This document shows, piece by piece, positions 6,275 to 15,560 of a stretch of DNA of 24,353 bases (position 1 is its first letter; the number at the start of each line of letters is the position of its first letter). Below the pieces are notes generated by a model. It did not search any database. It was not told where the DNA came from and worked only from the letters and a program-made list of their open reading frames with translations. The DNA comes from a virus. Position numbers and translations under genes: made by a program. The stretch spans positions 1 through 24,353 of IMG/VR virus record IMGVR_UViG_3300042298_000023; one strand, 5' to 3'.

Positions 6275-6458
6275 ACTTGACCTAGTTGAGAAGAAATTTA
6301 ACGAGCATGAGCAACACTACGTTACTGCGCTAACTCGCGGTAACTGTAAGGACTTTGGTGAGTACCAGAGAATTTGCGGGGTTATCCACGGTCTAAACCT
6401 TGCAAAAACCGAGTTAGAAGACCTGCGAAGAAAATTGGAGAAATCTCAAGATGACTGA
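6267..6458 (+). CDS. Small conserved helical protein downstream of portal
   Basis: This 63-residue protein is probably all helical, with a charged coiled-coil-like C-terminus (LAKTELEDLRRKLEKSQDD). The central pattern GEYQRICGVIHGLNLAK is one I recall from small proteins of unknown function at this position in other phages. Start and stop both lie in ATGACTGA overlaps, with the portal upstream and the GroES-like gene downstream, so it is translated as part of a coupled head-assembly block. No enzymatic motif is seen. Assembly factor is only a contextual guess. Confidence 0.75.
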   Translation: MTELDLVEKKFNEHEQHYVTALTRGNCKDFGEYQRICGVIHGLNLAKTELEDLRRKLEKSQDD

Positions 6459-6864
6459 ACTTTTAATCGGGCAAACCTTGGAAGCAGGGGGGCCAGTATC
6501 CGTACTACCCGCTACGCCAGAAGAAAAAGCCCGACAAGTACCGGACCCAGTGACTTATCACTTGCTGTGCGCCCTACCGGAAATTGACGAAAAGTACGAG
6601 AGCGGTTTGCTTAAGGCAAATCAAACACAGCAATTTGAGGAATTACTTTCCCCAGTTTTGTTTGTGATGAAGATGGGGCCAGATGCTTTTAAAGATGAAA
6701 AGCGGTTTCCAAGCGGTGCTTCATGCGCGGTAGGGGATTTTGTATTGGTTCGGCCCAACAGCGGAACTCGGATCAAGATTCACGGCCAAGAGATGCGGAT
6801 CATTAACGATGACTCCGTAGAAGCAGTTGTGCAAGACCCTCGCGGCATTAGTAGGAAGTTTTAA
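6451..6864 (+). CDS. GroES-like co-chaperonin
   Basis: This 137-residue protein resembles the Cpn10/GroES fold. It has an N-terminal strand TYHLLCALPEIDE (residues 35-47), a glycine-containing mobile-loop equivalent KYESGLLKANQ (48-58), VLFVMKMGPDAF (69-80), the barrel strand CAVGDFVLVRPNSG (92-105), and IKIHGQEMRIINDDSVEAVV (108-127). The last segment corresponds to the GroES C-terminal region. GroES caps GroEL and closes the folding chamber; T4 gp31 is the known precedent, replacing GroES to fold T4 major capsid protein. Its place between portal and scaffold/capsid genes points to capsid folding. No GroEL gene is present, so it would use the host's. A roughly 34-residue N-terminal extension is atypical. 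Confidence 0.8.
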   Translation: MTELLIGQTLEAGGPVSVLPATPEEKARQVPDPVTYHLLCALPEIDEKYESGLLKANQTQQFEELLSPVLFVMKMGPDAFKDEKRFPSGASCAVGDFVLVRPNSGTRIKIHGQEMRIINDDSVEAVVQDPRGISRKF

Positions 6865-8904: not shown

Positions 8905-9822
8905 ATGGCAATTTCACGCGCACAACTACTGAAGGAACTCCTTCCCGGCCTTAACGCTTTGTTTGGCATGGAGTACGCTCGTTACGGCGAAGAGCATAAA
9001 GAAATTTATGAACAAGAGTCGTCTGAGCGTTCTTTTGAAGAAGAAACCAAATTGGCTGGCTTCAGTGCCGCTCCGGTGAAGAACGAGGGTTCTGCCATCG
9101 CGTATGACAACGCGCAAGAGGCATGGACCGCTCGTTACAACCACGAGACCATCGCTATGGGTTTCTCCATTACCGAAGAGGCAATGGAAGACAATCTGTA
9201 CGACAGTCTGTCTGGTCGTTATACCAAATCCCTCGCACGGGCTATGGCGTACACGAAGCAGATCAAAGCTGCAGCCATTCTAAACACCGGCTTTACCGGC
9301 TCTGGCAACCCCACCTATGGTGACGGCCAAGTTCTGTTCTCCACTGCTCACCCTCTGGTGAATGGTGGTACTAACAGCAACCGCCCAACCACTGGCGCTG
9401 ACCTGAACGAAACCTCCCTTGAAGCGGCTGTTATTCAGATCGCTGCTTGGACGGATGAGCGCGGTCTGCTGATTGCTGCAAAGCCCAAAAAGCTGATCGT
9501 TCCCCCTGCTCTGATGTTCGTTGCTACCCGTCTGTTGGAAACCAGCCTCCGTGTTGGCACTACCGACAACGATATCAACGCGCTGAAGAACAACGGTTCG
9601 ATCCCCGGTGGCTATACCGTCAACCACTTCTTGACCGACACAAACGCGTGGTTCCTGACCACTGACGTTCCAAACGGTCTGAAGCACTTTGTTCGTATGC
9701 CTCTGGCTACGTCAATGGACGGTGACTTCGACACGGGGAACCAGCGTTACAAAGCCCGTGAGCGTTACAGCTTCGGCGTTTCGGACCCGTTGGGCATCTT
9801 CGGATCACCCGGTTCGTCTTAA
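8905..9822 (+). CDS. Major capsid protein (HK97-fold, Mu gpT-like)
   Basis: This 305-residue protein builds the icosahedral shell. The start (MAISRAQLLKELLPGLNALFG) leads into YEQESSERSFEEETKLAGFS (35-54), EGSAIAYDNAQEAWTARY (61-78) and GFSITEEAMEDN (86-97). This succession resembles the Mu gpT-like major head proteins, a branch of the HK97 fold. Gene order (scaffold, decoration, this gene) and the strong terminator directly downstream agree. The start has a good AAGGAG site. The short N-terminus without a long delta domain matches use of a separate scaffold. Confidence 0.87.
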   Translation: MAISRAQLLKELLPGLNALFGMEYARYGEEHKEIYEQESSERSFEEETKLAGFSAAPVKNEGSAIAYDNAQEAWTARYNHETIAMGFSITEEAMEDNLYDSLSGRYTKSLARAMAYTKQIKAAAILNTGFTGSGNPTYGDGQVLFSTAHPLVNGGTNSNRPTTGADLNETSLEAAVIQIAAWTDERGLLIAAKPKKLIVPPALMFVATRLLETSLRVGTTDNDINALKNNGSIPGGYTVNHFLTDTNAWFLTTDVPNGLKHFVRMPLATSMDGDFDTGNQRYKARERYSFGVSDPLGIFGSPGSS

Positions 9823-9918: not shown

Positions 9919-9931
9919 CACAGGAGCGCAA

Positions 9932-10552
9932 ATGGACATACAAAACCTACCCAAAACCCGTGCCAAAGCAATGGCGGCAAAGGCAACGCACTACTTCACC
10001 GGGGAGCCTTGCAAGCACGGTCATGTTGCCCCCCGCAAGACCAAAGGAGCGTGCGTAGATTGCATAAAGGCGGAGTGGCAAAAAGCAAACGAAACTCGTG
10101 CGGATTACTTCAAGGCCTACAACAAATCGGAAGCTGGGCAAGAAGCTAAAAATCGGTATTACGCAGCCAACAAGGAGGCTGTAGTTGCCAAAGCTAGAGC
10201 TACACCCAATGGGCTAAAGAACAAATACCGGCAGGCATGGAAGGACGCCAATGGCCTTGCTATTAATGCAGACAATAAAGCGCGTCGCCGTAAGCACCGC
10301 GAAGCTACACCCGCATGGCTAACTAGAAAGCAGAAGACAGAAATCCGTGCTATCTATCAGGCGGCAATGCTATCAACACAGATTACCGGACAGCGCTATG
10401 TAGTAGATCACATCTACCCCCTACGGTCCGAAGTTGTGTGCGGCCTGCACGTACCGTGGAACCTTCGCATCCTGACGCAAGAGGACAACCTACGCAAATC
10501 AAATACTTTGCCAGATGACTCTGAAGCCATTGCATTCCCGCCAAAGAAGTGA
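9932..10552 (+). CDS. HNH endonuclease, free-standing homing type
   Basis: This 206-residue protein starts at ATG 9932 after AGGAG; the longer open frame from 9689 overlaps the capsid gene and was rejected. An N-terminal zinc-knuckle-like module spans residues 21-44 (YFTGEPCKHGH and CVDC). A basic, helical linker follows. The HNH site is VVDHIYPLR (Asp159, His160) with LHVPWNLRIL (His173, Asn177) and EDNLRKSN (186-191). HNH enzymes nick or cut DNA, and free-standing phage copies commonly spread as homing endonucleases. It interrupts the virion operon between the capsid gene and the next structural gene, behind a terminator and with its own promoter-like sequence. This is an insertion-like arrangement. 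Confidence 0.9.
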   Translation: MDIQNLPKTRAKAMAAKATHYFTGEPCKHGHVAPRKTKGACVDCIKAEWQKANETRADYFKAYNKSEAGQEAKNRYYAANKEAVVAKARATPNGLKNKYRQAWKDANGLAINADNKARRRKHREATPAWLTRKQKTEIRAIYQAAMLSTQITGQRYVVDHIYPLRSEVVCGLHVPWNLRILTQEDNLRKSNTLPDDSEAIAFPPKK

Positions 10553-11193: not shown

Positions 11194-11700
11194 ATGGGTA
11201 TGCAAACAGACGTTAAATCGGGGCACCTTAACAACTCGGGTTTTGTTGTTCTAGGAAGAAATAGGCTCAAAGCTGTTTCTATGGTTGGCACAGCCACGGC
11301 TGGAACACTGGACATCTTTGACACCATCACAGCACCCGTTTCTGCGACATACGAGAGGGCAGCCGCTCTTATCACTGTTACCAAGAGTTCACACGGACTA
11401 GCTACCGGAGATGTAGTTGGCCTTGCGTTTGCAACAGCAAGCGGGTCATCTGGTACAAACGGAAACTACTCAATCACACGCACAGGCGCAAACACTTTTA
11501 CGGTTACAGACATTAACTCTGGAACTGTTGTTGCTGGAACAGTGGCGGCATACGCATCACTGTGGGTTGCCAGCTACGACACCGGTGCGTCTGACTTGTT
11601 TGGTAATTTTGCGTTGATTCCCGGTGAAGGTATTCTGGTAAGAAACGGTATCTACTTGAGCATGAGTAACTTACTTTCTGCAAACATTTACTATGGCTAA
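11194..11700 (+). CDS. Virion protein with an inserted beta-module
   Basis: This 168-residue protein uses ATG at 11194, seven bases after GGAG; an in-frame TTG lies two codons upstream. Residues about 1-50 (including NNSGFVVLGRNRLKAVSM) and 125-168 look like one structural domain. Residues about 55-120 carry a phage beta-module with the pattern SSHGLATGDVVGL, NGNYSITRTG and NTFTVTDINSG. Such modules occur in many tail and surface proteins. The stop overlaps the next start (ATGGCTAA). It is probably a head- or tail-surface protein; the exact role is unknown. Confidence 0.7.
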   Translation: MGMQTDVKSGHLNNSGFVVLGRNRLKAVSMVGTATAGTLDIFDTITAPVSATYERAAALITVTKSSHGLATGDVVGLAFATASGSSGTNGNYSITRTGANTFTVTDINSGTVVAGTVAAYASLWVASYDTGASDLFGNFALIPGEGILVRNGIYLSMSNLLSANIYYG

Positions 11701-11950
11701 GAAGAAAGGCCCGGTTCTCTCTGTTGGTCGGGGAGAAAAGCTCCCGGTCTCTCAGGGCGCGGGTCTGACTGCCAAGGGCAGGGCCAAGTACAACGCAGCA
11801 ACGGGCAGCAACCTGAAGGCTCCACAGCCCCAAGGTGGCAAGCGCAAGGACTCGTTCTGCGCCCGGATGTCAGGTATGCCGGGGCCAATGAAAGACGAGA
11901 AAGGCAAGCCTACACGCAAAGCTGCTGCTCTTGCTAGATGGAAATGCTGA
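11693..11950 (+). CDS. Small Lys/Gly-rich conserved protein with C-terminal Cys
   Basis: This 85-residue, strongly basic protein contains the segment GLTAKGRAKYNAATGSNLKA followed by GGKRKDSFCARMSGMPGPMK and an ALARWKC end. I recall this pattern as a conserved phage family of unknown function (possibly annotated as DUF6321). It overlaps the preceding virion gene by eight bases. It is the first of a series of tiny basic proteins up to 14063 and, like three of its neighbours, ends in Cys. Nucleic-acid binding or virion association would fit the charge; neither is shown. Confidence 0.75.
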   Translation: MAKKKGPVLSVGRGEKLPVSQGAGLTAKGRAKYNAATGSNLKAPQPQGGKRKDSFCARMSGMPGPMKDEKGKPTRKAAALARWKC

Positions 11951-11951
11951 T

Positions 11952-12191
11952 ATGGATGATGCAATACAGACGGCCCGAGAACTAGCCACTCATGCTTCGG
12001 ATATTGCACACTTGCAATCCGATATGGACAAAATGGCTGCGGACATGGAAGAGATTAAAAAGACTCTTGCAAGCATCCACACTACGCTCTCTGAAGCCAA
12101 AGGCGGCTGGAAGGTGCTGATGTTGGCCGGTGGTGCAAGCGCCGCTGCGGGTGCGGGGCTTATGCAAATACTCCACTGGTGGAGCAAGTAA
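11952..12191 (+). CDS. XhlA-like membrane protein, possible holin accessory
   Basis: This 79-residue protein begins MDDAIQTARE. Residues about 8-50 form a heptad-patterned amphipathic coiled coil. Residues about 53-74 (WKVLMLAGGASAAAGAGLMQIL) form one membrane span, and the end is HWWSK. This coiled coil plus a single C-terminal span is the layout of the XhlA family, small membrane proteins associated with holins. The start is ATG 11952, one base past the preceding stop; an in-frame TTG at 11931 was rejected. It is about 9 kb from the holin/endolysin pair, so it may instead be a membrane or tail-tip factor. Confidence 0.6.
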   Translation: MDDAIQTARELATHASDIAHLQSDMDKMAADMEEIKKTLASIHTTLSEAKGGWKVLMLAGGASAAAGAGLMQILHWWSK

Positions 12192-12565
12192 TGCCATCCA
12201 GCAGTAAGAAACAACACAATTTCATGGCTGCGATTGCCAATTCGCCATCGTTCGCTAAGAAAGTAGGAGTCCCACAGTCCGTGGGTAAAGACTTTAACGA
12301 GGCCGACAAAGGCCGCAAATTTTCAAAAGGTGGCGATATGAAAGAGTCAAAAGCAATGGTAGCCAAAGAGATGAACTTCATGAAAAAGAAGGGCGCTCCT
12401 AAATCCATGATCAAACATGAGATGGCTGAAGCAGGTATGAAAAAAAGCGGCGCGGCTAAGAAGATGATGGGCGGCGGCATGGCCTACGCTAAAGGCGGCG
12501 GCATTGAGTCCAAGGGTAAAACCAAGGGCAAGATGATCAAGATGTTGGGTGGCGGTAAGTGCTAA
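12191..12565 (+). CDS. Small basic tagged protein (GGGIESKGKTKG tail)
   Basis: This 124-residue Lys/Met/Gly-rich protein starts at ATG 12191 in a TAATG overlap, with GGAG six bases upstream. The N-terminal part (SSSKKQHNFMAAIANSPSF, then VGVPQSVGKDFNEADKGRKF) resembles a conserved phage/bacterial family of unknown function, possibly DUF3008-like. The centre is a Lys-rich helical stretch. The C-terminus AYAKGGGIESKGKTKGKM, ending GGGKC, carries the tag shared with the next two proteins. A second GG element (KFSKGGD) lies mid-protein. No catalytic motif is seen. Confidence 0.75.
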   Translation: MPSSSKKQHNFMAAIANSPSFAKKVGVPQSVGKDFNEADKGRKFSKGGDMKESKAMVAKEMNFMKKKGAPKSMIKHEMAEAGMKKSGAAKKMMGGGMAYAKGGGIESKGKTKGKMIKMLGGGKC

Positions 12566-12756
12566 TGGCTACCGCACCTAAAAAACCCAAAGTTGACCAG
12601 TCTAAAGAGACTAAGGTTTACACCGCTGATATGGGCCAACCACCAATGGACCCTGAAGTAGCGCCACCTACACCAAAACCCACTAAGGCAGTTAAGTCAT
12701 ACGTCCGTGGCGGTGGTATTGAGCAACGGGGTAAAACTCGCGGCAAAATTTGTTAA
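12565..12756 (+). CDS. Very small tagged protein (RGGGIEQRGKTRG tail)
   Basis: This 63-residue protein starts at ATG 12565, overlapping the previous stop by one base (TAATG). The body is Pro/Lys/Thr-rich and probably disordered, with no fold-like core. It ends SYVRGGGIEQRGKTRGKIC. Its last 16 residues closely match those of the following protein, although the bodies are unrelated; the protein is little more than a linker plus tag. Initiation appears coupled to the upstream gene because no strong ribosome-binding site is visible. Confidence 0.7.
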   Translation: MATAPKKPKVDQSKETKVYTADMGQPPMDPEVAPPTPKPTKAVKSYVRGGGIEQRGKTRGKIC

Positions 12757-12765
12757 GGAATGGTT

Positions 12766-13374
12766 ATGAAAAAACGTAAATTTGCAGACGGTGGCGAAAC
12801 TGAAGACCTCGTTGCTCCAGAGAGTCGAGAGGCAATACTTAGTCGCGTAACATCTAGGCTCCCAAAAACATTGGACGAGCCGTATACGCCTGAACCAGAA
12901 GAGCCATCTCGGACGTTTGCAAAGCCCGATAGGTTTTCAAAACCGGATAATTTTAAAGCGGCGTTTGCAGAAGCTAGGGCTGCTGGTGATAAAAATTTTG
13001 AATGGAATGGCACAAAGTATTCAACAGCTTTGGCTGGTAAATCGACGCCATCTGCAACTGAAAAAGCCTTCTCCACTGAGGGGCGTGGAAAAAATGTTGT
13101 AGCAAAACCAAAATATCAATCTTTGCAAGATCGTAATTCTGCTTACGCAGCTAAGTTAGCTACATCAGGTAAAGGTATGTACGGAACAAGTAAGTCCGTA
13201 AAAGAACCTCGTAGCAAAGAACCTCGTAGCGTCATGCAAATTTCCAGTTCTGATATGAAAGGTCCATATAAAGGTATGGGCACCGATTACAAACCAAAAA
13301 TGCGCGGCGACGAATCCTTTGCTCGTGGCGGCGGCATTGAGCAGCGCGGGAAAACCCGTGGACGGATGTGCTGA
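12766..13374 (+). CDS. Tagged protein with N- and C-terminal GG motifs
   Basis: This 202-residue protein starts at ATG 12766, six bases after AAGGA; the ATG at 12760 is too close. It begins KKRKFADGGETEDL, contains FKAAFAEARAAGDKNFEWNG near residues 64-83, has a low-complexity basic C-terminal half, and ends SFARGGGIEQRGKTRGRMC. Codons of the shared tag differ silently from those of the upstream gene, so the peptide is conserved rather than the DNA. Base composition looks more AT-rich than its neighbours. A segment of the form FxxAFxxARxxGxxxFxWxGxxY is one I associate with other phage proteins of unknown role. Confidence 0.7.
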   Translation: MKKRKFADGGETEDLVAPESREAILSRVTSRLPKTLDEPYTPEPEEPSRTFAKPDRFSKPDNFKAAFAEARAAGDKNFEWNGTKYSTALAGKSTPSATEKAFSTEGRGKNVVAKPKYQSLQDRNSAYAAKLATSGKGMYGTSKSVKEPRSKEPRSVMQISSSDMKGPYKGMGTDYKPKMRGDESFARGGGIEQRGKTRGRMC

Positions 13375-13375
13375 C

Positions 13376-13549
13376 ATGGCAACCGCAGGGCCAAAGCAAG
13401 TAGCTCAGTCTTTAAAAAAGGCTGGGTTTTACGGCGCAAGTAAACCTAAACGGCTGGGTATTATCAACAAGGTCACAACCAAGCCTCAGCGGATAGAGAT
13501 GGTTGATAAGCTGTTTTTAGCCAAAAAACCCAAAGGCGGTGCCAAATGA
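13376..13549 (+). CDS. Very small basic protein, unknown function
   Basis: This 57-residue, strongly basic protein starts at ATG 13376, one base after the preceding stop, and overlaps the next gene by four bases (ATGA). It contains SLKKAGFYGASKPKRLGIIN and ends KPKGGAK. It lacks the GGGIE tag of its neighbours but shares their charge and size. Tight packing on both sides supports a real gene. No function can be assigned. Confidence 0.65.
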   Translation: MATAGPKQVAQSLKKAGFYGASKPKRLGIINKVTTKPQRIEMVDKLFLAKKPKGGAK

Positions 13550-13833
13550 GAGCAAGTCGCGGCATGGGGGCCATTGACCCCAGCAAGATGCCTACTGGCA
13601 AGCGCCAGAAGCGCCGTGACGACACGGACTTCACGCAGTATGCCGAGGGCGGAGAAACCAAGTCCAAAGTCAACGAAGCTGGCAACTACACCAAGCCCAG
13701 CCTTCGCAAGCGCATCTTCAACAGCGTCAAAGCTGCGGCGATTGTAGGCACAGGTGCTGGGCAATGGAGCGCGAGAAAAGCACAAGTTATGGCTAAACGA
13801 TACAAGGCCGCAGGCGGCGGGTACAAAGATTGA
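13546..13833 (+). CDS. Small conserved protein with a QWSARKAQ segment
   Basis: This 95-residue protein starts MRASRGMGAIDPSKMP. A YAEGGETKSKVNEAGNYTKP element (one of the recurring aromatic-x-x-GG motifs) is followed by a basic helical domain, KPSLRKRIFNSVKA, then GQWSARKAQVMAKRYKAAGG. The latter pattern recurs, as I recall, in phages and some large DNA viruses as an uncharacterised domain. The gene overlaps both neighbours: ATGA upstream and TGA with a TTG start downstream. The charge suggests nucleic-acid or membrane contact, unproven. Confidence 0.75.
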   Translation: MRASRGMGAIDPSKMPTGKRQKRRDDTDFTQYAEGGETKSKVNEAGNYTKPSLRKRIFNSVKAAAIVGTGAGQWSARKAQVMAKRYKAAGGGYKD

Positions 13834-14063
13834 AAGCTCCACAGCAATCCCTCAAGGACTGGGGCGACCAGAAGTGGCGTACCAAGTCTGGTAAACCGTC
13901 TTCCAAGACGGGGGAGAGGTATTTGCCAGAGGCGGCTATCAAAAGCCTTAGCCCTAGTGAGTACGCAGCAACGACCAGAGCCAAAAGAGCAGGTAAAGCA
14001 AGTGGAAAACAGTTTGTAGCACAGCCTAAAGCAATCGCCAAGAAAACCGCAGGATTCAGATAA
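13830..14063 (+). CDS. Small conserved basic protein with TTG start
   Basis: This 77-residue, strongly basic protein starts with TTG at 13830 overlapping the preceding TGA. The coding sequence is conserved-looking from its first residues (MKAPQQSLKDWGDQKWRTKS, then TGERYLPEAAIKSLSPSEYA and GKQFVAQPKAIAKKTAGFR), so the rare start codon is probably genuine. Patterns like this occur in uncharacterised phage and large-virus proteins. Dependence on TTG in an overlap suggests low-level, coupled translation. The stop overlaps the next gene by one base. Confidence 0.75.
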   Translation: MKAPQQSLKDWGDQKWRTKSGKPSSKTGERYLPEAAIKSLSPSEYAATTRAKRAGKASGKQFVAQPKAIAKKTAGFR

Positions 14064-14983
14064 TGACTACTTCAGGCGTCTCTAACTTTGACATGGACTT
14101 GAGTGAAGTCATAGAAGACGCATTTGAACGTGCGGGGTCTGAGCTTCGCTCCGGGTATGACATGCGTACTGCGCGGCGTTCCCTGAACATTATGTTTGCT
14201 GACTGGGCTAACCGGGGCATCAACATGTGGACGATTGAGCAGGGGTCGTTTGCCCTGACTCAAGGTTTAAACACCTACGCGCTGCCGGTGGATACCGTGG
14301 ACTTGCTTGAGCATGTTATCCGCACAAGCGCCAACTCAACCTCTAACCAAGCGGACCTGACCATCACCCGCATTAGCATTAGTACCTACGCTACGCTACC
14401 CAACAAGCTAACTCAAGCCAGACCGATTCAGGTCATGGTGCAGCGCAACTCAGGGCAGACTTCAGCTACAACGATCACCCTTAACGGGGCCGTGACGGCC
14501 ACAGCCACCTCTATCACCCTGAGTTCGGTCATAGGACTCGCCGCTGCCGGGTACATCAAGGTGGACAGCGAAATCATCTACTACGGCTACATTGTGGGCA
14601 ATGTTCTAACAGCCTGCTCCAGAGGGCAGGCCAACACCACCGCAGCCACGCATACAACCACCACAACGGTGTATGTATCCAACCCCCCGGCAATCACCGT
14701 CTGGCCCACTCCTGATGGCTCCCAGACCTACACCTTTGTGTACTGGCGGCTGCGTCGGAACCAGAACGCCGGGGACGGCTCTGACACGATGGATGTGCCG
14801 TTCCGGTTTATACCTTGCGTAGCAGCAGGGCTGGCTTATTATTTGGCGCTCAAGCTGCCCAACGGCATGGAGCGTTTACAGGTATTGAAGGCACAATACG
14901 ATGAAGCGTGGCAATTGGCCCAAGATGAAGACCGAGAGAAAGCAGCGGTGCGGTTTGTGCCAAGACAGATGTTTATGAGCTAA
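14063..14983 (+). CDS. Probable head-tail connector protein with inserted beta-domain
   Basis: This 306-residue protein has an N-terminal helical section with TARRSLNIMFADWANRG (residues 36-52) and MWTIEQGSFALTQGLNTYAL (55-74), typical of connector/gp4-like proteins that seal the portal. Residues about 132-206 are an inserted Ser/Thr/Gly-rich beta-module with IKVDSEIIYYGYI (165-177) and SRGQANTTAATH (186-197). The core then resumes with VWPTPDGSQTYTFVYWRLRR and PFRFIPCVAAGLAYYLALKL. Location just before the adaptor genes agrees. The core pattern is one I associate with this position in aquatic phages. Exact layer in the neck is uncertain. Confidence 0.72.
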   Translation: MTTSGVSNFDMDLSEVIEDAFERAGSELRSGYDMRTARRSLNIMFADWANRGINMWTIEQGSFALTQGLNTYALPVDTVDLLEHVIRTSANSTSNQADLTITRISISTYATLPNKLTQARPIQVMVQRNSGQTSATTITLNGAVTATATSITLSSVIGLAAAGYIKVDSEIIYYGYIVGNVLTACSRGQANTTAATHTTTTTVYVSNPPAITVWPTPDGSQTYTFVYWRLRRNQNAGDGSDTMDVPFRFIPCVAAGLAYYLALKLPNGMERLQVLKAQYDEAWQLAQDEDREKAAVRFVPRQMFMS

Positions 14984-15377: not shown

Positions 15378-15560
15378 ATGGACAAGGCAGACAAGAAGCA
15401 AGACAAGAAGATGATCGCAGACATGGTGCATACGCACGAGGGGAAGTTGCACCCCGGCAAACCCAAGACCAAATTTGCCAAAGGCGGCAAGACAGACATG
15501 GACATGATGAAGTATGGTCGTGGCATGGCTAAAGTTATGAACCAAAAATCTGGAGGTTAA
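15378..15560 (+). CDS. Very small basic protein with KFAKGGK motif
   Basis: This 60-residue Lys/Asp/Met-rich protein has a clear AGGAG ribosome-binding site. It contains DKKMIADMVHTHEGKLHPG and then KFAKGGKTDMDMMKYG, ending QKSGG. The KFAKGG element matches motifs in the tagged proteins at 12191-13833, although the rest is unrelated. Probably disordered. No function can be assigned. Confidence 0.7.
   Translation: MDKADKKQDKKMIADMVHTHEGKLHPGKPKTKFAKGGKTDMDMMKYGRGMAKVMNQKSGG

Follow-up and report, generated by a model that had tools for sequence, protein, structure and literature searches.

A shared C-terminal peptide on unrelated basic proteins of aquatic podophages, a candidate virion-loading signal

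Three consecutive genes in a viral record (IMG/VR IMGVR_UViG_3300042298_000023; the 24,353 nucleotides analysed are called the window) encode proteins P1, P2 and P3, which have different bodies and end in one short peptide, tag A (Table 1). The peptide sits at the C-terminus of non-homologous, very basic proteins, is maintained by selection on the protein, resides in the structural operon of one lineage and comes in types that match the branches of that lineage. Based on these sequence patterns, we propose, with a probability of about 0.5, that the tag acts as a C-terminal signal loading variable internal cargo into the virion. Within the literature and family libraries searched, the finding is undescribed: a description of tag A or of its counterpart tag B was not found in the papers, and the tag is covered by none of the Pfam, PHROG and NCBIfam models, in line with the first-pass annotation, made from the letters alone, which had noted such tails in other aquatic phage proteins as being without known function.

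Table 1. Coordinates of the tagged ORFs, their tags and the neighbouring marker genes in the window
Feature	Position	Strand	Description
Major capsid protein (MCP)	8905..9822	+	Phage_capsid_4 / Mu gpT-like; marker of the tag lineage; candidate tag partner
DUF6321 protein	11693..11950	+	Upstream border of the tagged block; untagged in the window
P1	12191..12565	+	124-aa basic protein, pI 10.2; N-terminal SKKQ module (residues 1-43, three predicted helices), disordered middle, tag A, 11-aa extension
Tag A, extended form, in P1	12488..12562	+	AKGGGIESKGKTKG-KMIKMLGGGKC, then stop
P2	12565..12756	+	63 aa; Pro/Lys-rich body and tag A; start overlaps P1 stop; C-terminus VRGGGIEQRGKTRG-KIC, then stop
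Tag A, short form, in P2	12706..12753	+	RGGGIEQRGKTRG-KIC
P3	12766..13374	+	202 aa; N-terminal MKKRKFADGG, C-terminal tag A; C-terminus ARGGGIEQRGKTRG-RMC, then stop
Mini-domain in P3	12952..13044	+	FKAAFAEARAAGDKNFEWNGTKYSTALAGKS; resembles one in Rhizobium phage RHEph01 gp034
Tag A, short form, in P3	13324..13371	+	RGGGIEQRGKTRG-RMC
Adaptor	14063..14983	+	SU10/Pam1-type, SU10_adaptor match; downstream border of the tagged block

Results

Three adjacent proteins with one ending

The three ORFs had been delineated correctly in the first-pass annotation, in coordinates and in reading frame, and its central observation of unrelated bodies on a common C-terminal peptide was confirmed: the endings match, the bodies of P2 and P3 do not align (BLAST E=4.6), comparison of P1 with P2 gave zero match, and P1 and P3 share 21 low-complexity residues, K-RKF--GG, at E=0.028. 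As a single occurrence of the motif was obtained from 300,000 composition-preserving shuffles of P1, P2 and P3, its presence in these proteins is not due to chance. The 13-residue core is the same in P2 and P3 with 8 of 13 codons differing, every difference being silent, as counted before. The earlier description of the tag as followed by a few residues fits P2 and P3, but not P1 with its 11-residue extension, which is itself a recurrent form.

P2 and P3 are without a family in Pfam, PHROG and NCBIfam, and the N-terminal module of P1 provides the sole convincing family match among the three (phrog_16759, phrog_22033, phrog_25121). According to AlphaFold this module alone folds, with tag A of P1 predicted to be disordered (pLDDT about 42-54), and Foldseek gave hits, for the most part weak, to small unnamed phage proteins, several of them from phiKZ-like phages. 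The module (phrog_16759) is common to phiKZ-like jumbo phages, constitutes most of phiKZ PHIKZ165.1 and opens jumbo-phage proteins annotated as virion structural (phrog_22033, phrog_25121, 121Q gp51). As for the P3 mini-domain, RHEph01 gp034 is located between head-tail connector and capsid-assembly genes. Two further observations concern body modules: the mini-domain pattern FxxAFxxARxxGxxxFxWNGxxYxT recurs in tagged proteins of six other loci (L087, L108, L163, L168, L169, L242), and a small protein encoded at 15378-15560 of the window, which contains KQDKKMIADMVHTHEGKLHPGK, represents on its own a module that tagged SKKQ proteins carry internally.

Placement, forms and distribution of the tag

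IMG/VR was scanned with two degenerate DNA patterns, one for G-G-G-I-x-x-[K/R-like]-G-x-T-[K/R]-G and one for the R-G-D-G form of tag A, which gave at least 120 matches each. Some G and T positions are thus invariant by pattern construction; C-terminal placement and the other preferences are not, position relative to the stop having been no search criterion. At least 444 ORFs from at least 235 loci carry the motif at most 20 residues from the stop, which substantiates the earlier remark on similar tails in other aquatic phages. Among the matches listed, the distance from the motif to the stop is exactly 3 residues in 332 of the 444 ORFs and 11-12 residues in 86, and 22 further matches lie more than 20 residues away. 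The consensus is RG[G/D]G[I/C][E/A]x[R/K]G[K]T[K/R]G[R/K]x[V/C] followed by the stop, where the short form ends in [R/K]-[M/I/F]-[V/C/I] and the long form adds KM[V/I]xMxxGGxxC. Two copies are present in seven of the listed ORFs, with a spacing of 19-29 residues in six of them, so that the long form may represent a tandem unit that has been truncated. Since a few copies are internal, the tag may be able to do without a free C-terminus.

In bacterial genomes, 17 pattern matches were obtained, of which true tags are found in two MAG contigs only (L125 and L138), both also matching the phage adaptor. Although Planktothrix phage Pag-Yong1 and pelagiphage HTVC023P carry tags, tblastn of the bare tag against named phages gave no match, because the query is too short and of low complexity; Pag-Yong1 UMO75986.1, encoded in the block between capsid and adaptor genes described below, ends IGRDGCAKRGRTKGRFI.

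A second type, tag B, with the consensus RGxGAAxRGxxFKGxx followed by the stop, terminates many unrelated proteins of a marine branch (L255:18698-19081, L303-L422), including gp51 of the cultured HTVC023P, which ends SRGGGAAVRGMGFKGVF. Scanning with RGxGAAxRGxx[F/Y]KG yielded at least 120 loci, and in 120 of the 128 matches listed tag B is separated from the stop by 2 residues; it is found on many bodies, with no tag A in these tag B loci. By eye only, beta-rich repetitive bodies look alike in two tag B loci (L312, L331) and one tag A locus (L233).

Character of the tagged proteins

The 386 tagged proteins among the matches listed are small (median 131 aa), contain 20.6% Lys+Arg and few hydrophobic residues and have a pI above 9 in 99% of cases, 89% still exceeding this value once the last 30 residues are removed; for other ORFs of comparable length in ten long contigs the figure is 29%. 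No TM-like segment was detected in any tagged protein, and the membrane anchor considered in the first-pass annotation is thus without support. Its second option, a processing protease, is likewise without support since the E of GGGIE is absent from the larger GDG/ADG class; an E-containing site common to GGG, GDG/ADG and B tags was not seen, nor is any cleavage-type residue conserved across tag types. Virion packaging, the remaining option, is on sequence grounds probably the best of the three.

Such a composition, with tag and bodies alike rich in Gly, Lys and Arg (pI about 10), is what would be expected of an RG/RGG-like nucleic-acid-binding tail, by which basic disordered proteins would settle on phage DNA or RNA, in the cell or on the packaged genome, with no specific protein partner. 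We regard this as unlikely, since the invariant and hydrophobic positions (T10, I/C4 and the terminal V/C/I after M/F/I), the fixed distance to the stop, the two exclusive lineage forms and the strict residence in the structural operon exceed what a basic tail needs.

The tagged block and its carriers

Ten contigs of 61-67 kb contain 22 detected tagged ORFs, every one of them situated between MCP/cement/DUF6321 on one side and the homolog of the window ORF at 13546 or the adaptor on the other; of two further motif matches in these contigs, one is far from the stop and the other on the opposite strand, and both were attributed to chance. Further ORFs of the block carry degenerate tags, and counts of tagged ORFs are therefore lower bounds. 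The window MCP, which matches the phage capsid families PF25209 and PF10124 (AlphaFold model pLDDT 41), was found in 39 of 45 tagged contigs at 63-90% identity, and the adaptor in 22 of 24 further or MCP-unmatched contigs. Judged by these genes, the carriers form one podophage lineage comprising the window, Pag-Yong1 and HTVC023P, a large and abundant group of aquatic short-tailed phages. Named capsid relatives are Pag-Yong1, phage DSL-LC04, pelagiphages HTVC023P and HTVC027P, Roseobacter phages CRP-901/902, Alcaligenes phage QDWS535 and Caulobacter phage RW. No tag was detected in the close capsid relatives HTVC027P, CRP-901, 023Pt and RW, from which it follows that the conserved head proteins do not need the tag.

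Some DUF6321 proteins stop at a WNC ending while others, in L020, L030 and L057, continue from this ending into tag A, so the tag behaves as an add-on. The last residues of DUF6321 (window 11693-11950) are W-K/N-C, and it aligns with the C-terminal ends of phrog_10346 (437-525/525), phrog_3477 (861-928/928), phrog_28131 (306-372/372) and phrog_11180 (73-141/141), much like a C-terminal module in its own right, larger than the tag and joined to various bodies.

Adjoining the tagged block, window positions 13546-13833 and 13830-14063 encode small basic proteins (phrog_17747 and phrog_14910) of no known function, which are among the most conserved of the tag A lineage (median identity 70% and 84%). 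No usable solved structure was found for MCP, DUF6321 or these two proteins, and matches of the 13830 protein to designed alpha-repeat proteins were discarded as they look composition-driven. A divergent GroES-like co-chaperonin gene with a weak Cpn10 match (6451-6864) occupies the interval between portal and scaffold, a position conserved in the named relatives, and an HNH-endonuclease-like ORF, recognised by eye, lies between capsid and cement (approximately 9930-10552).

The position of the tagged block between the cement protein and adaptor genes would also suit a tag which attaches proteins to the outside or neck of the particle, as decoration, connector or tail-assembly contact, instead of loading them into the interior. 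This is improbable, as the very basic, disordered and hypervariable bodies are closer to internal than to decoration proteins, and tag B copies are also encoded between portal and GroES.

Tag type follows the phage lineage

In the contigs checked, tag B ORFs lie either between cement and adaptor or between portal and GroES. Of 27 tag B carriers, 17 encode the capsid at 58-67%, the others being mostly short fragments. Among the matches listed, 234 loci carry tag A only, 117 tag B only and none both, an exclusivity that is indicative because loci were sampled by tag. Mapped onto trees of ten structural-operon genes (TerL, portal, GroES, scaffold, MCP, adaptor and four others), tag type requires 2-6 changes, compared with 19-35 in shuffles; it tracks all structural genes about equally, so that no single partner is singled out. 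Two unrelated proteins of L305 and L341 both carry tag B, although their relatives elsewhere carry tag A, with mostly different codons; the capsids of these two contigs are A-like (77-81%) and yet go with tag B, hence overall capsid similarity does not fix tag type. Within tag A, the AD/GD subtypes cluster within genomes above expectation (57 AD pairs observed versus 34) without sharing of codons (0.53 vs 0.58); co-occurrence of the H9 variant within genomes was not significant. Subtype clustering and the matched tags of L305 and L341 are as a genome-specific partner would produce, with shared ancestry also contributing.

The common partner suggested in the first-pass annotation thus gains indirect support from the exact C-terminal placement, the confinement to the structural block and the tag type that follows the lineage. 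Such a partner might be a host factor which recognises the tag for degradation, protection or localisation, with the proteins acting in the infected cell and outside the virion, and related lineages indeed infect different hosts and use different tags. The location in the late structural operon, the occurrence of one tag form across many different samples and the fact that tag type follows the phage structural genes render this a decidedly improbable alternative.

Bodies diverge, the peptide is kept

Bodies were compared by BLAST after trimming of the tag and 15 upstream residues. Among the matches listed, 360 bodies fell into 150 clusters with 106 singletons, and not one of 223 same-contig pairs matched each other, with the proviso that homology of fast-changing disordered bodies may be too remote for BLAST to detect. 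Apart from the P1 module described above, the tagged bodies have no convincing relatives in Pfam, PHROG or PDB. Two cases are of interest in their own right: L243:6367-7518 (-) encodes, just upstream of a SKKQ protein, a 383-aa apparently folded tagged protein with the tail RGGGIEQRGKTKGRMV, for which no relative was found in Pfam, PHROGs or PDB and no protein other than itself in the viral contigs, and L220, L224 and L249 share tagged proteins of 251-256 aa with a possibly folded C-terminal half (YGYRNISTPAEL...KYFTMSDAE), for which no family was found.

At amino-acid-identical sites of 407 tags, codons differ in 54% of comparisons within the same genome and in 57% between genomes, close to the 58% of random choice. 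Codons are thus near-saturated, the peptide is held by selection on the protein, as had been concluded from P2 and P3 alone, and recent DNA copying of the tag is ruled out. The same near-saturation weighs against a role of the shared 3' end itself, either as a recombination landing site for cassette exchange at the DNA level or as a translation-coupling signal at the stop. Variable bodies on constant ends, the overlap of most tagged ORFs with, or close approach to, the next start and the lower GC of the tagged block (0.470 vs 0.517 for the whole window) would agree with such a role, which we consider very improbable, as the 11-12 aa extended form also breaks the fixed stop distance. Ordinary paralogy, one gene family with diverged bodies and the reading which the first-pass annotation had set against its own, could draw on the largest cluster, the SKKQ family of P1 (124 of the 360 listed bodies), and is ruled out to within a very small residual probability by the 149 further clusters, the lack of any detectably related same-contig pair and the unaligned bodies of P1-P3.

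Discussion

A putative loading signal for variable internal cargo

In the proposed model, the lineage would keep a fast-changing late-gene block for small, very basic, mostly disordered proteins that all terminate in a short linear motif, which is tag A or, within the marine branch, tag B. During procapsid assembly this motif would be bound by a conserved component of the forming head, for which the presumed HK97-type shell and the scaffold are the simplest candidates, and the changeable cargo would thereby enter the head. Once inside, it may help to neutralise the DNA, accompany the genome into the host on ejection, or do both. The loading reading is suggested by the combination of unrelated, basic, exchangeable proteins, a late structural block, a constant end and a lineage-matched tag, and draws further support from the P1 N-module, which opens jumbo-phage proteins annotated as virion structural, and from the precedent of the T4 internal proteins (PMC9026906). 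Location in the virion, identity of the partner, ejection and a role in the host are predicted steps of this model. Virion proteomics could have missed the tagged proteins, since at about 20% Lys+Arg trypsin would give very short peptides.

More tentatively, and with somewhat less than even odds, the tag may constitute a genome-matched C-terminal cargo code, by which any protein that gains the 13-16-residue ending would be loaded and delivered to the host; phages could then freely swap injected effectors, and co-evolution of the tag with a head component would lead to the mutually exclusive A and B tags of sister clades. If the tag is a loading signal, it would provide a simple sequence rule to recognise hundreds of unknown, possibly injected phage proteins and a cargo-loading handle for phage engineering.

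Comparison with known systems

The closest working analogues are the internal proteins of phage T4, variable, basic, DNA-binding proteins with a common short targeting peptide, which are partly ejected into the host (PMC9026906). Like the tag, the T4 capsid-targeting sequence (IPI/IPII/IPIII, Alt) is a short peptide common to different small, basic, variable proteins, and as in the tag lineage the cargo varies between relatives with conserved head genes (PMC9026906). Both hallmarks are present here, the same peptide on unrelated proteins (150 clusters, 0 of 223 pairs) and small basic cargo (median 131 aa, pI above 9 in 99%), each among the matches listed. In contrast, the T4 signal is N-terminal, 10-19 residues long, cleaved by gp21 and bound by the T4 core, whereas the tag lies near the stop, shows no recognisable prohead-protease site common to the tag types and belongs to a different phage group, in which packaging is predicted.

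Family 1 encapsulins bring unrelated enzymes into an HK97-fold shell through short C-terminal peptides (PMC8346489), and a short C-terminal peptide on non-homologous cargo is likewise seen here. The encapsulin is, however, a cellular compartment with enzyme cargo, and its TVGSL-type sequence (PMC8346489) differs from the consensus of tag A and tag B; binding of the tag to the shell is hypothetical. Among podophages, the N4 virion RNA polymerase needs a C-terminal region for encapsidation (PMC5512222), which resembles the proposed role of the tag in that the C-terminal part of a podophage cargo is required, but comprises about 1,400 aa on one protein instead of a short tag on many. Phage polyvalent proteins, of which Pag-Yong1 has a large annotated representative, have been proposed as variable cargo packaged and injected with the DNA, as is proposed for the tagged proteins; they are large and multidomain, and in the portion of the source consulted a shared short C-terminal tag was not found in them.

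Membership in the T4 or encapsulin families is not claimed, because the T4 signal is N-terminal and cleaved and the encapsulin peptide sequences differ; the tag would work like both and belong to neither. As a loading signal, it would represent a C-terminal counterpart of T4 capsid targeting.
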